Source: Ulva prolifera (Eukaryota; Chlorophyta; Ulvophyceae; Ulvales; Ulvaceae). From it: DNA of 64,000 nucleotides. Of the stretch, positions 48,895-60,329 are shown one piece after another. The position numbers were made by a program, and so were the translations under genes. Within the stretch, counting starts at the first letter, position 1, and every line of letters starts with the position of its first letter. Location: positions 8,191,172 through 8,255,171 of the forward strand of contig CM041201.1 of NCBI GenBank assembly GCA_023078555.1. The letters are read 5' to 3'. The notes beneath the pieces were generated by a model. That model was not told the origin of the DNA. It saw nothing but the letters and a program-made list of their open reading frames with translations, and made no database searches.

Positions 48895-49191
48895 TCAGTT
48901 TCCTTGAGCTTTGAGCACTTCCTCCTCATTCTCTAGCAATCCCATCTGTCGTCCCATACTATTCTGCAGCCCATAGCAGATGCCAAAGCCGAGGCCAATG
49001 ATGCCAGCAGCAACAGCGGTTGGCCTGTGCATGAAGGATCTTCTACCCATGAAGTATCCCATTACTGTTGTCGCCGCTGTTGCCTCTGCGGTCAATATCC
49101 AATCGCTGGTCCTGAATTTCTGCAGGCATGGCATCACGCCCGGGTCAGAGTCCAGGACCTGGTAGGGAGGGGCAGGGTACATCACACCCAT
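48895..49191 (-). CDS. Mitochondrial complex I subunit, NUXM / plant 20.9 kDa-type
   Basis: 98 codons, one exon, start ATG at 49191 (MGVMYPAPP). Accessory subunit of NADH:ubiquinone oxidoreductase in the inner membrane. The order of features matches the plant protein: YQVLDSDPG near the start, a short loop, FRTSDWILTAEATAATTVMG followed by YFMG, then RPTAVAAGIIGLGFGICYGL with QNSMGRQMG and an acidic end (ENEEEV). Two hydrophobic segments are present. It is divergently placed with RPB1; the 475 bp between them must hold both promoters. Confidence 0.8.
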   Translation of the reverse strand: MGVMYPAPPYQVLDSDPGVMPCLQKFRTSDWILTAEATAATTVMGYFMGRRSFMHRPTAVAAGIIGLGFGICYGLQNSMGRQMGLLENEEEVLKAQGN

Positions 49192-49666
49192 GATCACAGC
49201 GATATATGGAGGTGAGTGAACAGGGAAGAGATCTGACGATGCACAGAGCTACACGTGTGCTGAACAGGTTGCCGACCAGATTGCGACGCGCCGGTGTTTC
49301 CCCGGCTCCAACGTTCACGAGCGTTAAAGTCGCGACGAGGCGATGTGCTGTAGTGTGACCTTCTGTTTTGTTTGCGAATCAGGATCTAGCAACTCAGCAC
49401 GCTTCTCCACGGCACCTGCAGAGTCCCCAAAGTGGCTTCAAGAGATCTCATGCACGTCGAAAACCTCCGCACCGGAGTTGTAGCGATACTGTCTGACACA
49501 TTGTGCAGACATATAGAATCACAAAGCTCGTGTCACCGTCGACGCTTCAAGCATTGATTGCCAGCACAGTGCGGTGTCGCCCTTACAGGCGGATTGCTCA
49601 AAATGATACGGACCGCGTGACCTATCCGCAGACTGTTGCCAGCGGTAATTGAGGCAAATCAGCACC
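49192..49666. promoter_or_regulatory. Divergent intergenic region (complex I subunit / RPB1)
   Basis: 475 bp separates the two start codons, so both promoters should lie here. I see no convincing TATA element or other named motif. The region has moderate GC compared with the flanking exons. Confidence 0.4.
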
Positions 49667-52600
49667 ATGCCGATGCTTCATTCCTTTAAGGCCTCCCGGG
49701 CTCCGGTGAAGCGCGTCAAGGGCATTCAGTTCTGCATCTGGGACCCGGAAGACATTGTGCGTGCTCCTGGTTGCCCGACCTGGCAATGAAACAACATTTA
49801 TAATTCACATCATGCACGTAATCATGATTTACATTGCCTGTATGCGGTGACGCTCCGATTCGAGGTGCTGTCACGCTTGTGGTGCGGCAGCCAGCACGAG
49901 CTTAATCCAAATCACGGCACCTGCAGAAAAAGTACTCGGTAGTGCACGTTACCGAGCCAGTCACTGTTGTCAATGGCGAGCCCCGGAAGGATGGCCTGGC
50001 TGATCTCCGGATGGGAAGTTCGGAGCGCCATGCCGTGTGTACCACAGACGGAATGGATCGTGAGGAGGGATGTCCCGGATATTTTGGTCATGTTGAGTTG
50101 GCTACACCGCTGTATCATATCGGCTTCAATAAGACGGTGCTGAAAGTGCTGCGATGCGTCGGGTACCACAGCTCCAAGCTGTTGCTCGACCCGAGCAATC
50201 CGAAGGACGCCGCCATGTTGTCAATTCTGTCAAAGACAGTTTTGGGGCCTGCGCGACTGGAGCGTGCGATGAAAGCCTGCTCTAACAAGCAGACGGATTA
50301 CAACTCCGGCACAAAGCAGCCAAAGTATAAACTCGAACCAAAGATGCGCATCAATGTCATTGCTGAGTTCAGAGCTCCGAAAAAGAATGAGGAGGAAGAT
50401 GAAGAGGAGGGGGCTGTGAAGATGGAGAGAACTCAGGTACTTCATGATGACCTGCCAGACACCTTCCAAATGATCGCCCGCTATGCACTGCTCAGATCAG
50501 AACACTTGGTGTGCAGGAATTGACAGCAGAGCAGGTGTATAACATTCTGAAAGGTATCAGTGATGAAGACTGCCGGTTGCTGGGCTTTGATCCCCGCTAC
50601 TGCCGGCCAGACTGGATGATGCTGACTGTCCTTCCTGTGCCTCCCCCGCACACGCGACCAGCTGTTGAAATGGATTCAACGGGTCGCTGTGAAGATGACT
50701 TGACGCATCACCTGGCCAGTATTATTCGAGACAACCAGGCTCTCAAAGCTCACATGGCTTCGGGATCACCTGCCCACGTCCTCAAGGTCTGCCTCAACCC
50801 AGCTCCTCTTCCCGCACAGCCTCAGCAAACCACTGAATACCTGTCGCCTTTCCCAGCTCTGCGAATTGACTCAGCTGTTCACACTCATGGCGCAGTCCAT
50901 TACACTCACTTGCAAGATCGTCTCTCAGTTCCCAGCAGGCACTCCTTGAGCCATATCTGCAGGCCACCGCTGCCCTCACAGCGACCTTCACCCTCACGAC
51001 CAACTTATGCTCTGCAGGAGTATGTAGAGCTGCTGCAGCACGCAGTCATCACGCTCATGGACAACGGCAAGCCCGGGATCCCCCGTGCGAACGTGAACCG
51101 ATCTAGTCGCCCCGTCAAGTCGTTCAGCCAGCGGCTCAAGGGCAAGCACGGCCGCATCCGCGGCAACCTCATGGGCAAACGCGTCGACTTCTCTGCCCGC
51201 TCGGTGATCACCGGCGACGCCCTCATTGACATCGATGAGCTCGGCGTGCCTTGGAGCATTGCGCGAAACCTCACTGTTCCCGAGCGGGTCACCCCGCATA
51301 ACATTGACTGGCTGCAGACGCTCGTCGACCGCGGCCCACACCCGCCACCTGGCCTCACCGGTGCGCCACTCTCGCTCTGTGGTAAATGCCGGTCCTCTCG
51401 ACCTCCTTCAGTGATCTGTTCTTCCATCTCCGCTCCCTGATACGTGCCCGGGCGTCCTCACCACTTTTCCCGTCTCGGGGTTCGCAGCAGAGCGTGTGAG
51501 GCCATGAGTGTGCCCTGCCGTGCAACTTGAGGGCGGCTAGACAGCAACAGAGCTTCGCTGCCTTCGTGTGCAGGGGCGAAGGAGATCTTCCGCGAGGATG
51601 GGTACCCCATCTCGATCTCGCACTCCAACCGCAACAAGGTCGACATGCGCCTCGAGCCGGGGTACATCGTCGAGCGGCACCTGCAGAATGGCGACTTTGT
51701 GGTGTTCAACCGTGCGCCGTCGCTGCATAAGATGTCGATGATGGCGCACCGCGTCCGCATCCTGCCGTACTCGACTTTCCGGCTCAACCTGTCCGTCACG
51801 CCGCCGTACAACGCCGACTTTGACGGCGACGAGATGAACATGCATGTGCCGCAGTCATACGAGGCGCGCGCGGAGCTCTGGCAGCTGATGCATGTGTCGC
51901 GCAACATCGTGTCGCCGCAGAGCAACCGGCCGGTGATGAAGATCGTGCAGGACTCGCTGCTCGCGTCGCGGCTGATGACGCGCCGGGACACGTTCATCTC
52001 GCGGAGCGACTTCATGGGCCTGTGCATGCAGCTGCGTGACTGGGACGGCGTCCTGCCGCAACCGGCGATCCTCAAGCCAGAGCCGCTGTGGACTGGCAAG
52101 CAGGTGCGCGTCTAGATTCCACAGCGGCTTGGCCTTGCTGCCCGAGGCCCTGTGCTGCAATTTCGGTTGCCTATCAGCCGTGTGACTTTGCCATCCTCTA
52201 GGGCAAGTGTGCTTAGCAAAACATGAGCGGCTTGCCAGAATCATCTTGGTATCTATTTTTGGCAGCGGGTCAGCTGCAGTGAAAGGCCTGGGGAGATGGC
52301 TGCACTGACGGGGGTTGCGTTGGCCGTGCAGGCGTTCAGCTTGCTGTTTGACCGCACACTGAGCTACCGCGGCAGCGCGTCGGGCAAGCTCGACACGGAG
52401 GATTCGACGCACCCAGGCATGTCGCCGACGGACTGCCAGGTGCTCATCCGCAAGGGCCAGCTGCTGGCTGGCATGCTCGACAAGAAGGCCCTCGGTGACT
52501 CTGGCGGCGGCCTCATCCACATCATCTTCAACGAGGAGGGCTTCCAGGCCGCCGCGAACTTCATCAGCGTCGTGCAGTTTGTCGTGAACAACTGGATGGC

Positions 52601-55600
52601 GCACCACAGCTTCTCGTGTGGTATCGGCGACACCGTCGCGGACCCCGAGACGATGAGCAAGATCGCCGTCATCATCCAGGACGCGAAGGGCAGCGTCCAG
52701 GAGATCATCAAGGCGTACCAGGGCGGCAAGCTCGAGGAGCGGCCCGGCCGGTGCGGCCACGCTCTGCTCGGTGCATGATGCATGCGTGCCACAAGCGCCT
52801 GCGCCCATGCGTCATCCACAGTGAGGATTCATGCGGAAGAAGATCGTCTCGGTGCCTATGCAAGCCGTCGACGAGCCTCTGCACATCCGTTCATCTCGCC
52901 CGCTTGTGTGTGTTGATGGTGCACAATTCTGTTTGCACTGCTCCTCTGGTGTGGACCCGCGTCCAAATGCGTGCGTGTGTTTTTGTGTGGGATGTCAGTG
53001 GGCCGTTGCGGAGTGCAGGACGATGCATGAGACGTTCGAGGACAAGGTGAATGCGGCGATGAATGCCGCGCGCGAGAAGGCCGGCAAGACGGCGCTCGAG
53101 TCGCTGCGGTTCTCCAACAACGTCGTGCAGATGTCGCTCGCGGGCTCCAAGGGCTCCAACCTCAACATTTCGCAGATGGTTGCGTGCTGTGCGCAGCAGA
53201 ACGTCGAGGGCAAGCGCATCCCGTTCGGTTTCACCGCCCGCACGCTGCCGCACTTCAACAAGGACAACTACGGCCCCGAGAGCCGGTGCGTGAGCCTGTC
53301 GCCGGCTCGGCTTCGGCGCCGAATCCCCAAACCTGCTGTCGTGCACTGTTGCACTATTGTTCACTCAGATTACAGCCCTGGCATCCCACTGCATCGCTGC
53401 TGGAGGCGAGAGTGACTCCGGCGTCAGTGCACGACGCGCGAAGCGGCATGCAGGGGCTTTGTGGAGAACTCGTACCTGCAGGGCCTGTCGCCGCAGGAGT
53501 TCTTCTTCCACGCGATGGGTGGCCGGGAGGGCCTCATCGACACCGCCGTCAAGACGGCCAACTCCGGCTACATCCAGCGCCGCCTCGTGAAGGCCCTCGA
53601 GGACCTCATCATCCACTACGACAACACCGTGCGCTCGTGCACCGGCTCCGTCGTGCAGTTCCTGTACGGCGAGGACGGCATGGACGGTGCGGCGATCGAG
53701 CGGCAGCGGCTGACGCACCTGCGCGACTCGCCGGCGCAGTTTGCGGCGCGGTTCGCGTACGACGTCGGGGCGCAGGCGCCGGACTGGGTGCCGAAGGGCC
53801 TCGCGGACCGGCTGCTGACGGACACGGCGTCGAAGCAGGCGCACCTCGAAGAGATCGAGATGCTCAAGGTGCGCAGCTGAGCGGCCCGCGCTGCTCGTCT
53901 CCGGCATATACTGCCACGGCTTGCAACACATGAGGCCGGTCGGACACATCGCGGCACGTGCAGCTTAGCAGCCCTCCCAGTGCCTCATCCTACAGCAGCA
54001 TTGGATGGTAGGACACCAGTGTTGAGCCAGCAACAGCCGGTCTTGTTGTGGTCGAGCCACTCAGCAGGGTGACCTCGAGAGTGGCGGGGCTTGAATGCTG
54101 CGTCTGCCTCACAGTCGAGGACATTTTCTCATTGCGCCTCGGCCCACACCCAGCCCGCACCACACCACACCACGTGAACACGCAGCGCCCCCTCAGCTTG
54201 TCGCAATGACAGCTCGGCGCAGCAGGCTTCACTGCGGACCCTGGCTGAGCTCGACCCAGTGCCTTACCCCCTGTGCCGTCAGATACATCGCAGGTCAAGG
54301 AGACATAGGCATCTACCATACATCAGCGCTCTCTTCGTGCAGGAGGGGCTGCGCGTGCTGCGGCAGGAGGTCATCCCCAGCGGCGACAACGAGGTGCAGC
54401 TGCCGGTCAACCTGCAGCGCCTCGTCGTCAAGGCGCAGACGCTCTTCGGCGCCACCGGCGGCGACGCCTCCTTCGGGCCGCTCGAGATTGTCAACGGCAT
54501 CAACGGCCTCGTCGATCGCCTCACCGTCGTGCCGGGCAAGGACCGCCTCTCCGAGGAGGCGCAGCGCAACGCCACGATCCTCCTCTTCAACCACATCCGC
54601 AGCACGCTCTCCAGCAAGCAGGCGCGCCCCCTCCCCCCGGCTCGCAGCCCCCGTGTAGCATCTAGGCATGCTGCTGCCGCGCCGAGCGGCTGTGGTTGCC
54701 GATGTGAGACTCAACGGCCTGCGTGGCAGTCAAAATCACCTCATGGGCGGTGGGAGATCTGGACACATGGCGGCTATGGTCGCGTGTTCAGTCCGCGATT
54801 TCACGCCGGGTCGGAGGAAGTCAGAGTGAGCTGTGCTTGATTTGGTGTTGCACGATCGACGCGTGGCTTGAGCTTTTGCCGGCAGCCGTGCAGGTGCTGC
54901 GGGATTACAAGCTCTCGGCGCAGTCGTTCAACTGGCTGCTGAGCGAGATTGAGAGCCGCTTCCACTCGGCGCTGGCGCAGCCCGGCGAGATGGTCGGCAC
55001 CGTCGCCGCGCAGTCCCTCGGCGAGCCGACGACGCAGATGACCCTCAACACGTTCCATAACGCCGGTGTCGCCGCGAAGAACGTGACCCTCGGCGTGCCC
55101 CGCCTGACGGAAATCATCAACATCGCGAAGAACATCAAAACGCCGAGTCTCACGATCTACCTCACCCCCGCGGCCGCGGTGGACCAGGACCTCGCGAAGG
55201 CGACGCAGACGAAGATCGAGTACACGACGGTGGAGTCGGTTACGCGGGCTGTCGAGATCTGGTGCGCAATCCCCCCCCTAGCGCGCGGACGACTGGTGCT
55301 GCTGCAGTGCATGAACACATCAAGACTGCTGCGCTGTGCTGCGTTCTGTGCACCACATTGTGGAAATCAGCACCTTTTTGCTTTTGCACCGCGGCAACAG
55401 TCTGTCTGGCCCTCAGCAGTCAAGAGGATTTGTCCAACCGCCAACATACATAGAGGCACGCTCTGCGTTTGTTTTGAGGGAAACGCGGTGGAGGCAAGGC
55501 GCGCCGGGTGCAGGTACGACCCGGACCCGCGGGAGACGGTCATCGAGGAGGACCAGGAGCTGCTGGAGGCGTACCTGCTCGTGCCGGAGGGCGACTTCCA

Positions 55601-58600
55601 GCCCGAGCTGCAGTCGCCGTGGCTGCTGCGCATCGAGCTCGACAAGATGATGATGCTCGACAAGCGGCTCGAGTGCGTGGAGGTCGCGAGCAAGATCGGC
55701 GGCTCGTACCTCGGCCTCGTGCACGTCATCTCGTCGGAGGATAACGCCGACAAGCTCGTGCTGCGCATCCGCCTCATCGAGGGTGCGCTGCGTGCTGTGT
55801 GCTGCGGCGCGGCCCTGGTGGCTGCGCGCCGTGGCGCGCTGTTTGTGCCGGCGTTCTCTCCGCTTGTGAGAAGGAGGCTGGGCGCAGAATTTTGCCTCTG
55901 CGGCGCTTCATGCTGCTCAGTCGTGTCAGTTTTGTGGGCTGTCGGGGCGGCCGTAGCCGACCGCCAGCTGCAACCGGCGCAGTCACTGACTGCAGACCTT
56001 CCCGAGAGCGCAGTCATGCTGCAGTCGTGGCTCTACATCCACCCCGGTGAGATTTGTGTTGATGTTGACGCTCATGGCATGCATGCAGACGACAAGAACA
56101 CGGACGATGAGGAGGAGCAGAACCTGTTCATGGTCAAGTTTGAGCACCACCTGCTCGAGAACGTCGCCCTGCAGGGCATCCGCAACGTGCGCAAGGTCTT
56201 CATGCGGCAGGAGGAGTCCACGATCCCAAACCCGACGGACGCGCTCCTCGGCTACGAGCGCCGCAAGGAGTGGCTGCTTGACAGCGAGGGCATCAACCTC
56301 GCAGAGGTGCTGCAGGCGGACAACGTCGACGCGACGCGTACGCTCAGCAACCACGTCGTCGAGATGTTTGAGGTCCTCGGCATCGAGGCCGCGCGCCTCT
56401 CGGTGCTCAAGGAGCTCCGCGCCGTGCTCGAGTTTGACGGCTCGAAGGTCAACTACCGGTGCGCGCCGCGTGCTGTGGCTCCGCTGGGGCGGCGAGCGGG
56501 GGGCCGCGCCCCACACTGCAGATGTAAGGCGAGTCATCGTGTGTCCGGTGTTGGGCGGGCATCGAATCACGAGAGTATGGGCCGTCGCATGGCAGAGCAC
56601 CAGATCATGCTACCAGGCATTGCACCCAAAAGCGGATGTGGGGACATGGAATCGAGACCGGGCCATCTTGAAGTGGATTGTGCGCGTGGTGAGGGGTACT
56701 GCAGCGCTGACGGCCGGTGGGTGTGCAGGCACATGGCGTCGCTGGTGGACATCATGACGGCGCGCGGCCAGATTATGGCGATCACGCGGCACGGTATCAA
56801 CCGCCGCGACTCGTCGCCGATCGCGCAGTCGTCCTTCGAGGAGACCGTCGAGATTCTCTTCCGCGCCGCGACGTACGGCGAGTTTGACCACCTCCGCGGC
56901 GTCTCGGAGAACATCCTGCTCGGTCAGGTCTGCCCCCTCGGCACCGGCTCGTTCGCGCTCGTGCTCGACAACGAGAAGCTGCTCGACGCGATCGAGACGA
57001 TGGGCGCGGACGTGCTCGGGCTCAACATGGGCACGGGCGCGTACAACCCGCTGTCCGGCGCGGGCGCGAGCCCGGCCGCGATGACGCCGATGCACTTCAA
57101 GGCCTCGCCGAGCGACTTCCTGAGCCCGCAGATGAGCCCGCTCGGCGGCTCGGACGTGATGTTCTCGCCGACGGTCGACGGCGGCATGAGCCCGACCTCG
57201 CCCTCCTACAGGCACGCGCCCCCCACCCTGCACTTGTCCTGGCGTGGAGCACAGGCTTCTCTGCACCGCAGTGGCGGTCCCCCATGTTTGGGCTCCCTAT
57301 CGGCTTTTGGCTGTGCTTCAACTTGTACCCTGACCAGATTCTGCAGCTGTGTGTCCCAGTGTGACGTTGATGCCGCTGCCAGTGTGGTATGTGACGTGCG
57401 ATGGCCTGTCGCTCCATTCTGACGCAAGCTCGGTGTGTGCAGCCCGACGTCCCCTGGCCTCTACAGCCCGAGCAGCCCTGCGTGCGCCCCCACCTTCTCG
57501 CTGCCGTTGCTGCCATGCCACGACTGCCATAGCCCCGGGTACCTGCTAACAGCCCCACGAGAAGCTGTGATGTATGCACTCGGCGGAACGAGCTGCTGAG
57601 CCGGGTAGAACACTGTTACAGCCGCTGTGTCGGCGTGCCCTCTTGCTGAGCCCCCGTCCCCGCATGTGCTGACGGTTCCTGTAGATCCCGACAACCCCAT
57701 GTGTGCTGTAGGTATTCTCCCAGCAGCCCGGCGTACACTGGGGCCAGGACGTCCCCAGGCTACAGCCCCACCAGCCCCGGGTACAGCGCACAGAGCCCCG
57801 GCTACAGCCCCACCAGCCCTGCGTGCGCCACCTCCCACCATCGCTGCATACCCCGCCTGCCGTTTCTCCAGGATTCGTGGTACATGTGATCATGACTGTA
57901 CACGCCTACAGGGCAGGTCAGCCTGCATTTGCCCGGGTTGCTCTGTGCCATGCCGAGCTGTCGATGCGGTTGTCGACTGCTGGAATCGTGCGTGCCACTC
58001 TGCGCCCTGACTGTGGTGGGTGCGCTGCAGGTACTCACCCACTAGCCCGCAGTACAGGTGTGCCTTCCTCTCTCCCCTGCCTGCCTTGACCAGTCTTGCG
58101 CAGCCATACTCTGCTCTCCAGGTAGCCCCTTGTGTTGCCCTTGCGAGGTGAGTGTGTTTTCCTGTCAGACAGCGTGCAAGTGTGTCTGGGGCTTGATGAA
58201 GAGCTCCCTGGCTCCAGCCTATTAGAGCCAATGCCTGCGCTCTGACTGCATATACTGTGACTGCGCAATTGTGTCGCAAACCTGGTGTCATCTTCAGCCT
58301 GCTTGACTGTGGTGTCATACCTGCAGCCCGACCTCACCGACGAGCCCAGGCTACTCCCCCACAAGCCCCGCCTACAGCCCAACATCACCCGGATACTCAC
58401 CCACCAGCCCAGCGTACGCTCACGCTCCCCCCACTACCTCCCCCCCCATCATCGCTTACCTGTTCATGCATCGCCAACGGCCACATGCCAGCACCTCAGC
58501 ATCTCTGGTTCATCAGAATCAGTGCTATGTTGCTTCAAAGGTTCGTTGGGAACCGCCCCACAGATGACAGTTGCTCAGAAATGGGATGTGTCCTACATGG

Positions 58601-60329
58601 TCACCCCATGATGACGGAGCGCTCCTCACATCTCCACCGCGGTGCAGGTACTCCCCGAGCAGCCCCGCCCTGAATGGGGGAACGTCCCCCGGCTACTCGC
58701 CCACCAGCCCCGCCTACAGCCCCACATCCCCCGCATACTCCCCCACCTCGCCGGCATACAGCCCGACGAGCCCCGCTTACAGCCCCACAAGTCCGGCGTA
58801 CAGCCCCACGTCGCCCGCCTACAGCCCCACCTCCCCTGCGTACGCCCTGCCTCCCTTGCCTCAACTTGCCTCCCATGTACTGTGTGCCCGACTGCACAGC
58901 ACTCACAGGCTCATCTGAGCATGTGCCGCTTGGAGCGCCCCTAGTATAACGGTATTGCAGCGCCGGCCGTGGCTGACCCCCTGGCCGGCATGAGTGGCCG
59001 CGGCTCACCGTGCTGTGTTGTGTGCAGATACTCCCCGACCAGCCCGACGACCAGCCCAACAAGCCCGTCATACAGCCCCACCAGCCCAGCGTATGGTCCC
59101 CCCGGCCCCTTCGCCCATGTCACTTGCTCATGCTCTGTGGACGTCTCGTCTGTCTGGACTGGGATTCTTCGTCATGCGCTTGTTGCTGCCAGTGGAGCTT
59201 GCATACGCTGCCTGCCTCACGGATGCTCCTGATTGTGTGTGGCAGTGCACTGCAGCATTTGCGGTGGCCGCACGCACACTCAGGCCAAAGAATTGACCAA
59301 GTGGCCCCTGGCGCAATGTACAACGCACACAGCTGCTCAGGTGGCTCTGCGTGCAGGTACTCCCCGACGTCGCCGACGTCCTACTCGCCGCTGTCCCCTG
59401 CTGGCGCCTACAGCCCGACGTCCCCCTCCTACTCCCCCACCTCCCCATCGTACGCTCCGTTCCCTCACCCGCCGCACAGCACCTGCTGCCTCCCTCTGAT
59501 TCGTGTTGCTACTGGGTGTGGGGTGGTCGCGCCGACGGTGTGACTGAAGCGCGTTCATGCCGAAGATGCATGTGCCCGGCCGTTGCTGCTGTGAGCCCTG
59601 GTGTGTGCCTCACACCGGCTGCTGTGGTGCAGGTACAGCCCGACGTCCCCCGCAGCCCCCGGCACGGCGCAGTACTCCCCGCAGCAGGCATACAGCCCGA
59701 CATCCCCATCGTGCGCACCCCCCCTGAATCTCTCTGCCGCAGGTCCACGACCGCCGCTGGGCATGGCTCAACTCAACGCCAGACCGCACGGGGTGCAGAT
59801 ACAGAGCAGCGTCGGCGTGCGGCAGCTTGCATGCGGCTGTTCTGTGGTATAGCATATATGCACGGTCACGTAGCAGCTGTCACCCCGCCCACTCGCCCTG
59901 CGGCCAACCCCGCCCTCACGCCGCGTGCCGCTGCTGTGCAGGTACAGCCCGACGTCCCCGAACTACAGCCCGCAGAGCCCCTCGTACTCCCCGTCGGCGC
60001 CCGGCTCCTCCAGCGCGCAGCCGGGCTACTCCCCCATGTCCCCCTCCTACAGCCCGCAGACGGCGCAGTACAGCCCGACCCAGCCGCACCCGGGGCAGTC
60101 CAACACGTACTCCCCACACGGCTACGCGGCGTACTCGCCCGCGGGTGCGCCGCCGAGCGGCTCTGCCGGGCAGGCGCCGTCGGCGTCGTACCAGTACACC
60201 CCGGCGATGCCGTCAACACAGTATAGCCCCGCCGCACCCGGCGCGGGCACGTCCCCGGCGTATACGCCGGCTGGGGAGAACCCCGGCGGGGCCGGGGCGC
60301 CGGCGGGGGACGGGCAGCACCAAGGCTGA
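49667..60329 (+). CDS. RPB1: RNA polymerase II largest subunit RPB1
   Basis: 22 exons: 49667-49756, 49927-50436, 50517-50786, 51018-51360, 51574-52103, 52332-52750, 53019-53285, 53454-53868, 54343-54621, 54894-55261, 55514-55782, 56089-56458, 56729-57211, 57443-57481, 57712-57822, 58031-58057, 58327-58413, 58648-58839, 59028-59090, 59357-59449, 59633-59710, 59942-60329. They total 5,691 nt, 1,896 residues plus stop, all phases consistent. The active-site motif [16 protein letters not shown] is intact, as are [11 protein letters not shown]-type, [12 protein letters not shown] and [20 protein letters not shown] (trigger/bridge region) and [13 protein letters not shown]. The N-terminal clamp is odd: CxxC and CxxH zinc ligands are largely missing. 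The CTD has roughly 30 YSPTSPx-like units, mostly with Ala, Ser or Gly at position 7, ending in a degenerate Pro/Gly/Ala tail. Two introns are GC-AG. Confidence 0.95.
57190..60329 (+). other. RPB1 CTD-encoding region split into ten exon pieces
   Basis: The heptad repeat is encoded by the end of exon 13 and exons 14-22, the smallest only 27 bp (58031-58057). Seven of nine introns sit in the codon for heptad position 7, phase 2, directly before the Tyr codon; the other two (57212-57442 and 58058-58326) sit in the Ser2 codon, also phase 2. Most donors read GC then GTACGC or GTGCGC and most acceptors CAG then GTACTCC or GTACAGC. Confidence 0.9.

Follow-up and report, generated by a model that had tools for sequence, protein, structure and literature searches.

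A green-algal RPB1 gene in a genome whose RNA polymerase II has probably shed most of its structural zinc

The window analysed here is a 64,000-nucleotide stretch of Ulva prolifera contig CM041201.1, and it carries on its plus strand the gene for RPB1, the largest subunit of RNA polymerase II (Pol II), in which most zinc ligands of the clamp have been replaced. Frame reading from the start at 49667 yields 14 exons that encode 1554 residues without a stop, up to the beginning of the C-terminal domain (CTD). Two introns, those after 54621 and after 57211, have an apparent GC donor. The features of the gene are as follows:

49667..49756, plus strand: exon 1, residues 1-30; ATG start, gt donor, joined in frame to exon 2
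49927..50436, plus strand: exon 2, residues 31-200, clamp core and head with both degenerate zinc sites; one open frame, cag acceptor, gt donor
50517..50786, plus strand: exon 3, residues 201-290; PF04997 at 106.2 bits
51018..51360, plus strand: exon 4, residues 291-404, within the mammalian RPB1 alignment; from splice sites and frame
51574..52103, plus strand: exon 5, active site; PF00623 at 151.1 bits, PF04983 at 75.3 bits
52332..52750, plus strand: exon 6, joined in open frame, no stop
53019..53285, plus strand: exon 7, joined in open frame, no stop
53454..53868, plus strand: exon 8, presumably the bridge-helix region, joined in open frame, no stop
54343..54621, plus strand: exon 9, GC donor; from splice sites and frame
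54894..55261, plus strand: exon 10, presumably the trigger-loop region; from splice sites and frame
55514..55782, plus strand: exon 11, from frame
55996..56046, plus strand: exon 12, from frame
56089..56458, plus strand: exon 13, from frame
56729..57211, plus strand: exon 14, with the first CTD-like repeats at its end and a GC donor; from splice sites and frame
57462..60044, plus strand: C-terminal heptad repeats over several small exons; 27 [YF]xPxSP matches in three frames

The identity of the gene is well marked. Rpb1 domains 1-3 occur in order, each over its Pfam cut-off (PF04997 in exons 2 and 3, PF00623 and PF04983 in exon 5), and the heptad CTD follows at 57462-60044. Exon 2 scores 98.8 bits against PF04997 (cut-off 39.7) and matches 1970-residue mammalian RPB1 chains, which we take to be human, at E 6.5e-19, and residues 102-581, a stretch that takes in the active site, align with mammalian RPB1 (E 3.7e-145 or better), with a counterpart of the NADFDGDE motif in exon 5. 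These data agree with the first-pass annotation, made from the letters alone, which had placed an exon at 49927-50436 and had held the gene to be RPB1 and not the product of misreading.

In mammalian RPB1 the clamp reads CQTCAGNMTECPGHFGH and RCVCFFCSKLL, and the algal protein has diverged at both places. Codons and alignment indicate that two of the eight clamp ligands are kept and six are gone:

50038..50082, plus strand: former Zn1 site, with C68 (TGT), D71 (GAC, formerly Cys), C79 (TGT) and Y82 (TAT, formerly His)
50161..50172, plus strand: first knuckle of the former Zn2 site, with G109 (GGG) and S112 (AGC) in place of C..C
50296..50307, plus strand: second knuckle of the former Zn2 site, D154 (GAT)-Y-N-S157 (TCC)(-G) in place of C..C(G)

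Where a CxxC-CxxH site and a second, four-cysteine site would be expected, the alga has C-D-C-Y and G-S-D-S. The exchange of the second Zn1 cysteine for Asp and of the ligand His for Tyr had already been reported in the first-pass annotation, as had the absence of most canonical ligands, which with six of eight lost turns out to have been understated. Its description of Zn2 was correct as to the loss, but it counted the "lone Cys" of KACSNKQ as a surviving ligand, and this residue (C148 in the alga too) aligns with human C148, numbered by counting along the mammalian RPB1 alignment and presumably a non-ligand; the human residue that we take to be the ligand, C154, is Asp in the alga, six residues past C148, and Zn2 therefore keeps none of its four ligands. 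No cryptic canonical clamp exon was found in the six frames of the window, in which the pattern CPG[HY]FG occurs only in exon 2.

All eight ligand columns are invariant Cys or His in 71 of 71 archaeal A' N-termini (72 loci matched among 91 searched, with L088 dropped). Where a column is invariant in these 71 sequences, the algal residue agrees at 23 of 30 non-ligand positions versus two of eight ligand positions (Fisher p 0.011); at 95% conservation the non-ligand figure is 41 of 63 (p 0.051), and at 90% it is 51 of 80 (p 0.054), both borderline. The ligand columns are thus kept less often than other conserved columns, suggesting that the ligands were lost faster than the rest, though in RPB1 by itself only modestly so. 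A scan of viral contigs with the clamp alignment gave 12 loci, all with eight clamp Cys/His and one (L149) with a more widely spaced last pair; the patterns used required GHFGH[IV]E or [DE]TYDEDG and were therefore biased towards intact sites. No relative of exon 2 was confirmed among viral contigs with search patterns that reach close relatives only.

The loss is not confined to RPB1. A PF04560 search gave five matches, in three second-largest-subunit genes, the first of which, RPB2 by PDB match, reads HVDTKSGLLAAANLKNQTFTSLTGNK; its C-terminal four-cysteine site, HVCxxCG..CxxC, has become HVDTKSG..SLTG, with D-S-S-G at the four ligand positions. The second, RPC2 of Pol III by PDB match, reads YVDGRSGLLGWYDAKKKQAVSPVDK (YVDGRSG..SPVD) and has likewise lost all four ligands. 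The third, identified by Pfam Rpb2 domains 6 and 7 and presumably RPA2, keeps C..C and C..C. In RPB3, the zinc-binding loop is CDACDGDGQCEFC in plants versus VYEAGEDGDVQEVNF in the alga, the form VYEAGEDGDVQE having replaced the plant loop with the loss of four of four ligands. The N-ribbon of RPB9 reads C-T-S-S (three of four ligands lost) and scores 19.4 against a PF02150 cut-off of 25.2, and its C-ribbon is intact (CPNC..CVSC). The best PDB matches of RPB3 and RPB9 are plant-type chains, and some of the top chains carry names that refer to RNA polymerases II, IV and V. RPB10 is canonical (106.6 bits in Pfam, CFTC and CC kept). Three further TFIIS-type C-ribbons are all intact, in genes that we take to be TFIIS, RPC11 and RPA12; TFIIS keeps its zinc ligands, and the N-ribbons of RPA12 (C-S-C-S, two of four lost) and RPC11 (C-D-C-C, one of four lost) are partly degenerate. 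Both zinc sites are kept in RPA1 (by reading) and in RPC1. RPC2 (C6:7961930-7962154) is without all four ligands, yet RPC1 of the same polymerase keeps eight.

This survey took in the polymerase subunits named above and TFIIS. By its count the Pol II-specific subunits have lost 17 of 24 ligands (RPB1 6/8, RPB2 4/4, RPB3 4/4, RPB9 3/8), compared with 2/20 in Pol I and 5/20 in Pol III. Yeast Pol II has eight zinc sites, three of them in the clamp; of these eight, the seven outside RPB12 were covered here, and five are degenerate in the alga and two intact. Because RPB2, RPB3, the RPB9 N-ribbon and RPC2 are affected as well, what had looked like an oddity of one exon becomes an enzyme-wide loss.

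To place the RPB2 change among its relatives, we compared 91 RPB2-family loci. Cysteine was scored at all four aligned columns in 52, and the other 39 comprise 21 that by eye have an intact CxxC displaced in the alignment, 17 in which the fourth ligand is Asp (14) or His (3), and one, L057, that has lost all four. L057 is an RPB2 on the viral contig IMGVR_UViG_3300010885_043880, where it reads WIDNETG..SLYS, with D-x-x-T-G at the first knuckle; it resembles the algal RPB2 in the loss of four ligands and in motif (DNETG versus DTKSG, SLYS versus SLTG) but is a viral-contig enzyme of another lineage. Genome contigs were also scanned with the RPB2 C-terminus, which gave 578 confirmed stretches; of the best 80 among them, 79 are archaeal by title or genus and one lies on a contig titled as a bacterial metagenome-assembled genome (MAG). 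This contig (L058), from an Acholeplasmatales MAG of sheep rumen, carries an RPB2 of eukaryotic type with both CxxC pairs retained, probably through MAG contamination.

In the assembly (88.9 Mb, 44 contigs, the window being part of the 8.8 Mb contig C6) one copy each of RPB1, RPB2, RPB3 and RPB9 was found. Searches of the whole assembly with PF04997 (8 matches) and PF00623 (7 matches) recovered exons of three largest-subunit genes, on C6, C8 and C5, and those on C5 and C8 have Pol I RPA1 and Pol III RPC1 as best PDB matches. The two further matches of exon 2 in the genome were far weaker (E 5.2e-6 and 9.4e-4), and no second RPB1, RPB2, RPB3 or RPB9 was found in the assembly. The four genes lie on four contigs: RPB1 on C6, RPB2 on C8, RPB3 on C3 and RPB9 on C2. 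A PF00504 search of the same assembly gave 38 chlorophyll a/b-binding exon matches, the best of which had PDB matches to chlorophyll a-b binding proteins (among 60 listed of 89). Upstream of RPB1, a 100-residue open frame on the minus strand at 48895-49197 reads like a small membrane protein.

The best explanation, in our judgement a probable one, is that this gene, the only RPB1 found, is the working copy in a green alga whose Pol II gave up most of its structural zinc. Judged by sequence, the sole Pol II found is likely zinc-poor, and the Pol II of this alga may run on far less zinc; the zinc-free or zinc-poor clamp that the first-pass annotation had foreseen as a consequence is supported. 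The frame of RPB1 is intact; that the gene is expressed, that zinc is absent and that turns have taken its place, we infer. The chain folds would have stayed, and zinc knuckles would have become metal-free turns at the RPB1 Zn2 site, the RPB2 clamp site and the RPB3 loop, where all four ligands are gone, and at the RPB1 Zn1 site and the RPB9 N-ribbon, which keep two and one. The apparent replacement is D-x-x-S-G in RPB1 Zn2 (DYNSG), RPB2 (DTKSG) and RPC2 (DGRSG), where CxxC-G stood, with ligands elsewhere exchanged for serine, threonine, aspartate or glycine. A turn capped by Asp, closed by Ser or Thr and followed by Gly may thus substitute for a zinc knuckle, such that packing and turns with hydrogen bonds, not zinc, would hold the clamp together.

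The fold, though not its detail, is supported by an AlphaFold2 model of exon 2 that drew on 46 archaeal sequences. The model has a mean predicted local distance difference test score (pLDDT) of 64 and a predicted template-modelling score (pTM) of 0.44. It is good around exon residues 71-130, except at 101-110, where quality dips, and the former Zn1 region is poorly modelled. The 50 matches listed of 162 in the PDB are Pol II complex chains (by title or sequence match), the best being largest-subunit chains, with TM-scores over the query of 0.35-0.47 among those 50.

Several points weigh against so extensive a loss of zinc. With these low pLDDT, pTM and TM-scores, the exon 2 model is weak. RPC1, RPA1, RPA2 and RPB10 keep their ligands, and within RPB1 alone the ligands have been lost only modestly more often than other conserved positions. 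Two Zn1 cysteines are still there in RPB1, and C107, H111 and C148, also still present in the clamp, could in principle make an unusual site. By analogy, a degenerate site may retain metal: the degenerate Haloferax TFE-alpha ribbon has a single cysteine and nonetheless shows weak zinc binding according to portions of PMC5861453.

One alternative is that some degenerate sites still bind zinc weakly, namely RPB1 Zn1 (C-D-C-Y, with H85 adjoining) and the N-ribbons of RPB9, RPA12 and RPC11 through Cys and Asp, which would make the enzyme zinc-poor there, not zinc-free. The two cysteines of RPB1 Zn1 would suit such binding, as would the three cysteines of the RPC11 N-ribbon with Asp at the fourth place, the low-affinity precedent of Haloferax TFE-alpha (in the same portions of PMC5861453), and the Asp or His found as fourth ligand in 17 of the 91 RPB2-family loci. 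Weak binding is inapplicable to RPB2, RPB3 and RPC2, which have no ligand cysteine left at the site, and to RPB1 Zn2 unless that site is rearranged, and we put the chance of it at a little under even.

The cause of the loss is a separate matter. It may have been neutral, a compensating contact having arisen in Pol II and the ligands having then drifted away without benefit, an account that we consider nearly, though not quite, an even prospect. The graded series from the RPC11 N-ribbon (one of four lost) through the N-ribbons of RPA12 (two) and RPB9 (three) to RPB2 (four) looks like step-by-step decay, but the recurrence of D-x-x-S-G at three sites suggests selection for a particular turn.

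Adaptive zinc sparing, in which usable zinc is or was scarce and the polymerases were stripped of structural zinc, would fit the occurrence of Pol II losses in four genes on four contigs and the involvement, to differing degrees, of all three polymerases. RPA1, RPA2, RPC1, RPB10 and TFIIS keep their ligands, however, which is unexpected under a general sparing programme, and the first four of these argue against simple genome-wide sparing; we consider this explanation unlikely. Similarly doubtful is the strongest form of the argument, that here a eukaryote depends for every Pol II transcript on an enzyme stripped of zinc, five of whose eight structural sites, including all three in the clamp, became metal-free turns by selection for zinc independence, a change that spread partly to Pol III and Pol I.

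Base composition bears on the remaining alternative. The G+C content at third codon positions (GC3) of RPB1 is 0.77, 0.62 and 0.56 in exons 1-3, 0.82 in exon 4 and 0.88-0.99 in exons 5-14, but RPB2 (0.63, 0.65, then 0.96-0.98 before a last exon at 0.80), RPC1 (0.63, 0.81, 0.86, 0.96, 0.94, 0.77) and RPA1 (0.57, 0.92 and 0.83 in the exons measured) have 5' exons that are low too. Since low 5' GC3 is common to the four genes, it is no mark of a foreign piece, and the idea that the 5' end of RPB1 is chimeric or of foreign origin was rejected. That the genuine RPB1 lies elsewhere and this gene is a specialised paralogue, or a pseudogene in decay, is very improbable and largely refuted: the low GC3 of exons 1-3 against that of exons 5-14 had resembled a patchwork but recurs at the 5' ends of RPB2, RPC1 and RPA1, the other two largest-subunit genes found in the assembly are RPA1 and RPC1, the frame is intact with a CTD present, and the partner subunits show the same loss, so that of the overall interpretation in the first-pass annotation the RPB1 identity and the consequence for the clamp stand, and the paralogue option, left unsupported by the whole-assembly domain searches, does not.

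A natural Pol II without most clamp ligands, and with no second copy found, would show that these zinc sites are replaceable. The algal clamp sequences would be ready material for testing the role of zinc in the clamp, and they suggest that metal supply and the evolution of a core transcription enzyme may be linked, which can be tested. In bacteria, zinc-independent (C-minus) paralogues of ribosomal proteins replace structural zinc and thereby spare the metal. Those proteins are zinc-regulated second copies, whereas in the algal assembly no additional, zinc-binding copy of RPB1, RPB2, RPB3 or RPB9 was found.

The matches listed from open-access literature on zinc and polymerases included no account of a Pol II that has lost zinc sites. 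The canonical Pol II clamp of yeast and human RPB1 and RPB2 shares with the alga its domain order, active site, heptad CTD and the sequence around the ligands, but the alga is without 6/8 ligands in RPB1 and 4/4 in RPB2. These ligands are described as invariant in sections of PMC8020760, where their substitution in Pol II is temperature-sensitive or lethal, and an excerpt of PMC5335688 attributes the lethality to Donaldson and Friesen 2000. NRPD1 of plant Pol IV is, like the algal RPB1, a diverged Pol II-type clamp of the green lineage. It is a paralogue with its ligands kept, however, retaining the CxxC-CxxH site and adding a Pol IV-specific CxxC (according to extracts of PMC11603163 and PMC8020760), whereas no separate canonical RPB1 beside which the algal gene could be such a paralogue was found in the assembly. 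The nearest precedents, as far as the excerpted sources go, are AC40 and Haloferax TFE-alpha/beta. AC40 (RPAC1) of Pol I and III is an RPB3 paralogue without the zinc-binding loop (in part of PMC13374769), an ancient difference between polymerases and not a loss inside RPB3. Haloferax volcanii TFE-alpha/beta, an archaeal two-subunit initiation factor, is, like algal Pol II, part of the transcription apparatus with metal-site cysteines lost, and it still folds and works, retaining, unlike what we propose for most of the algal sites, a low affinity for zinc (from the same portions of PMC5861453).
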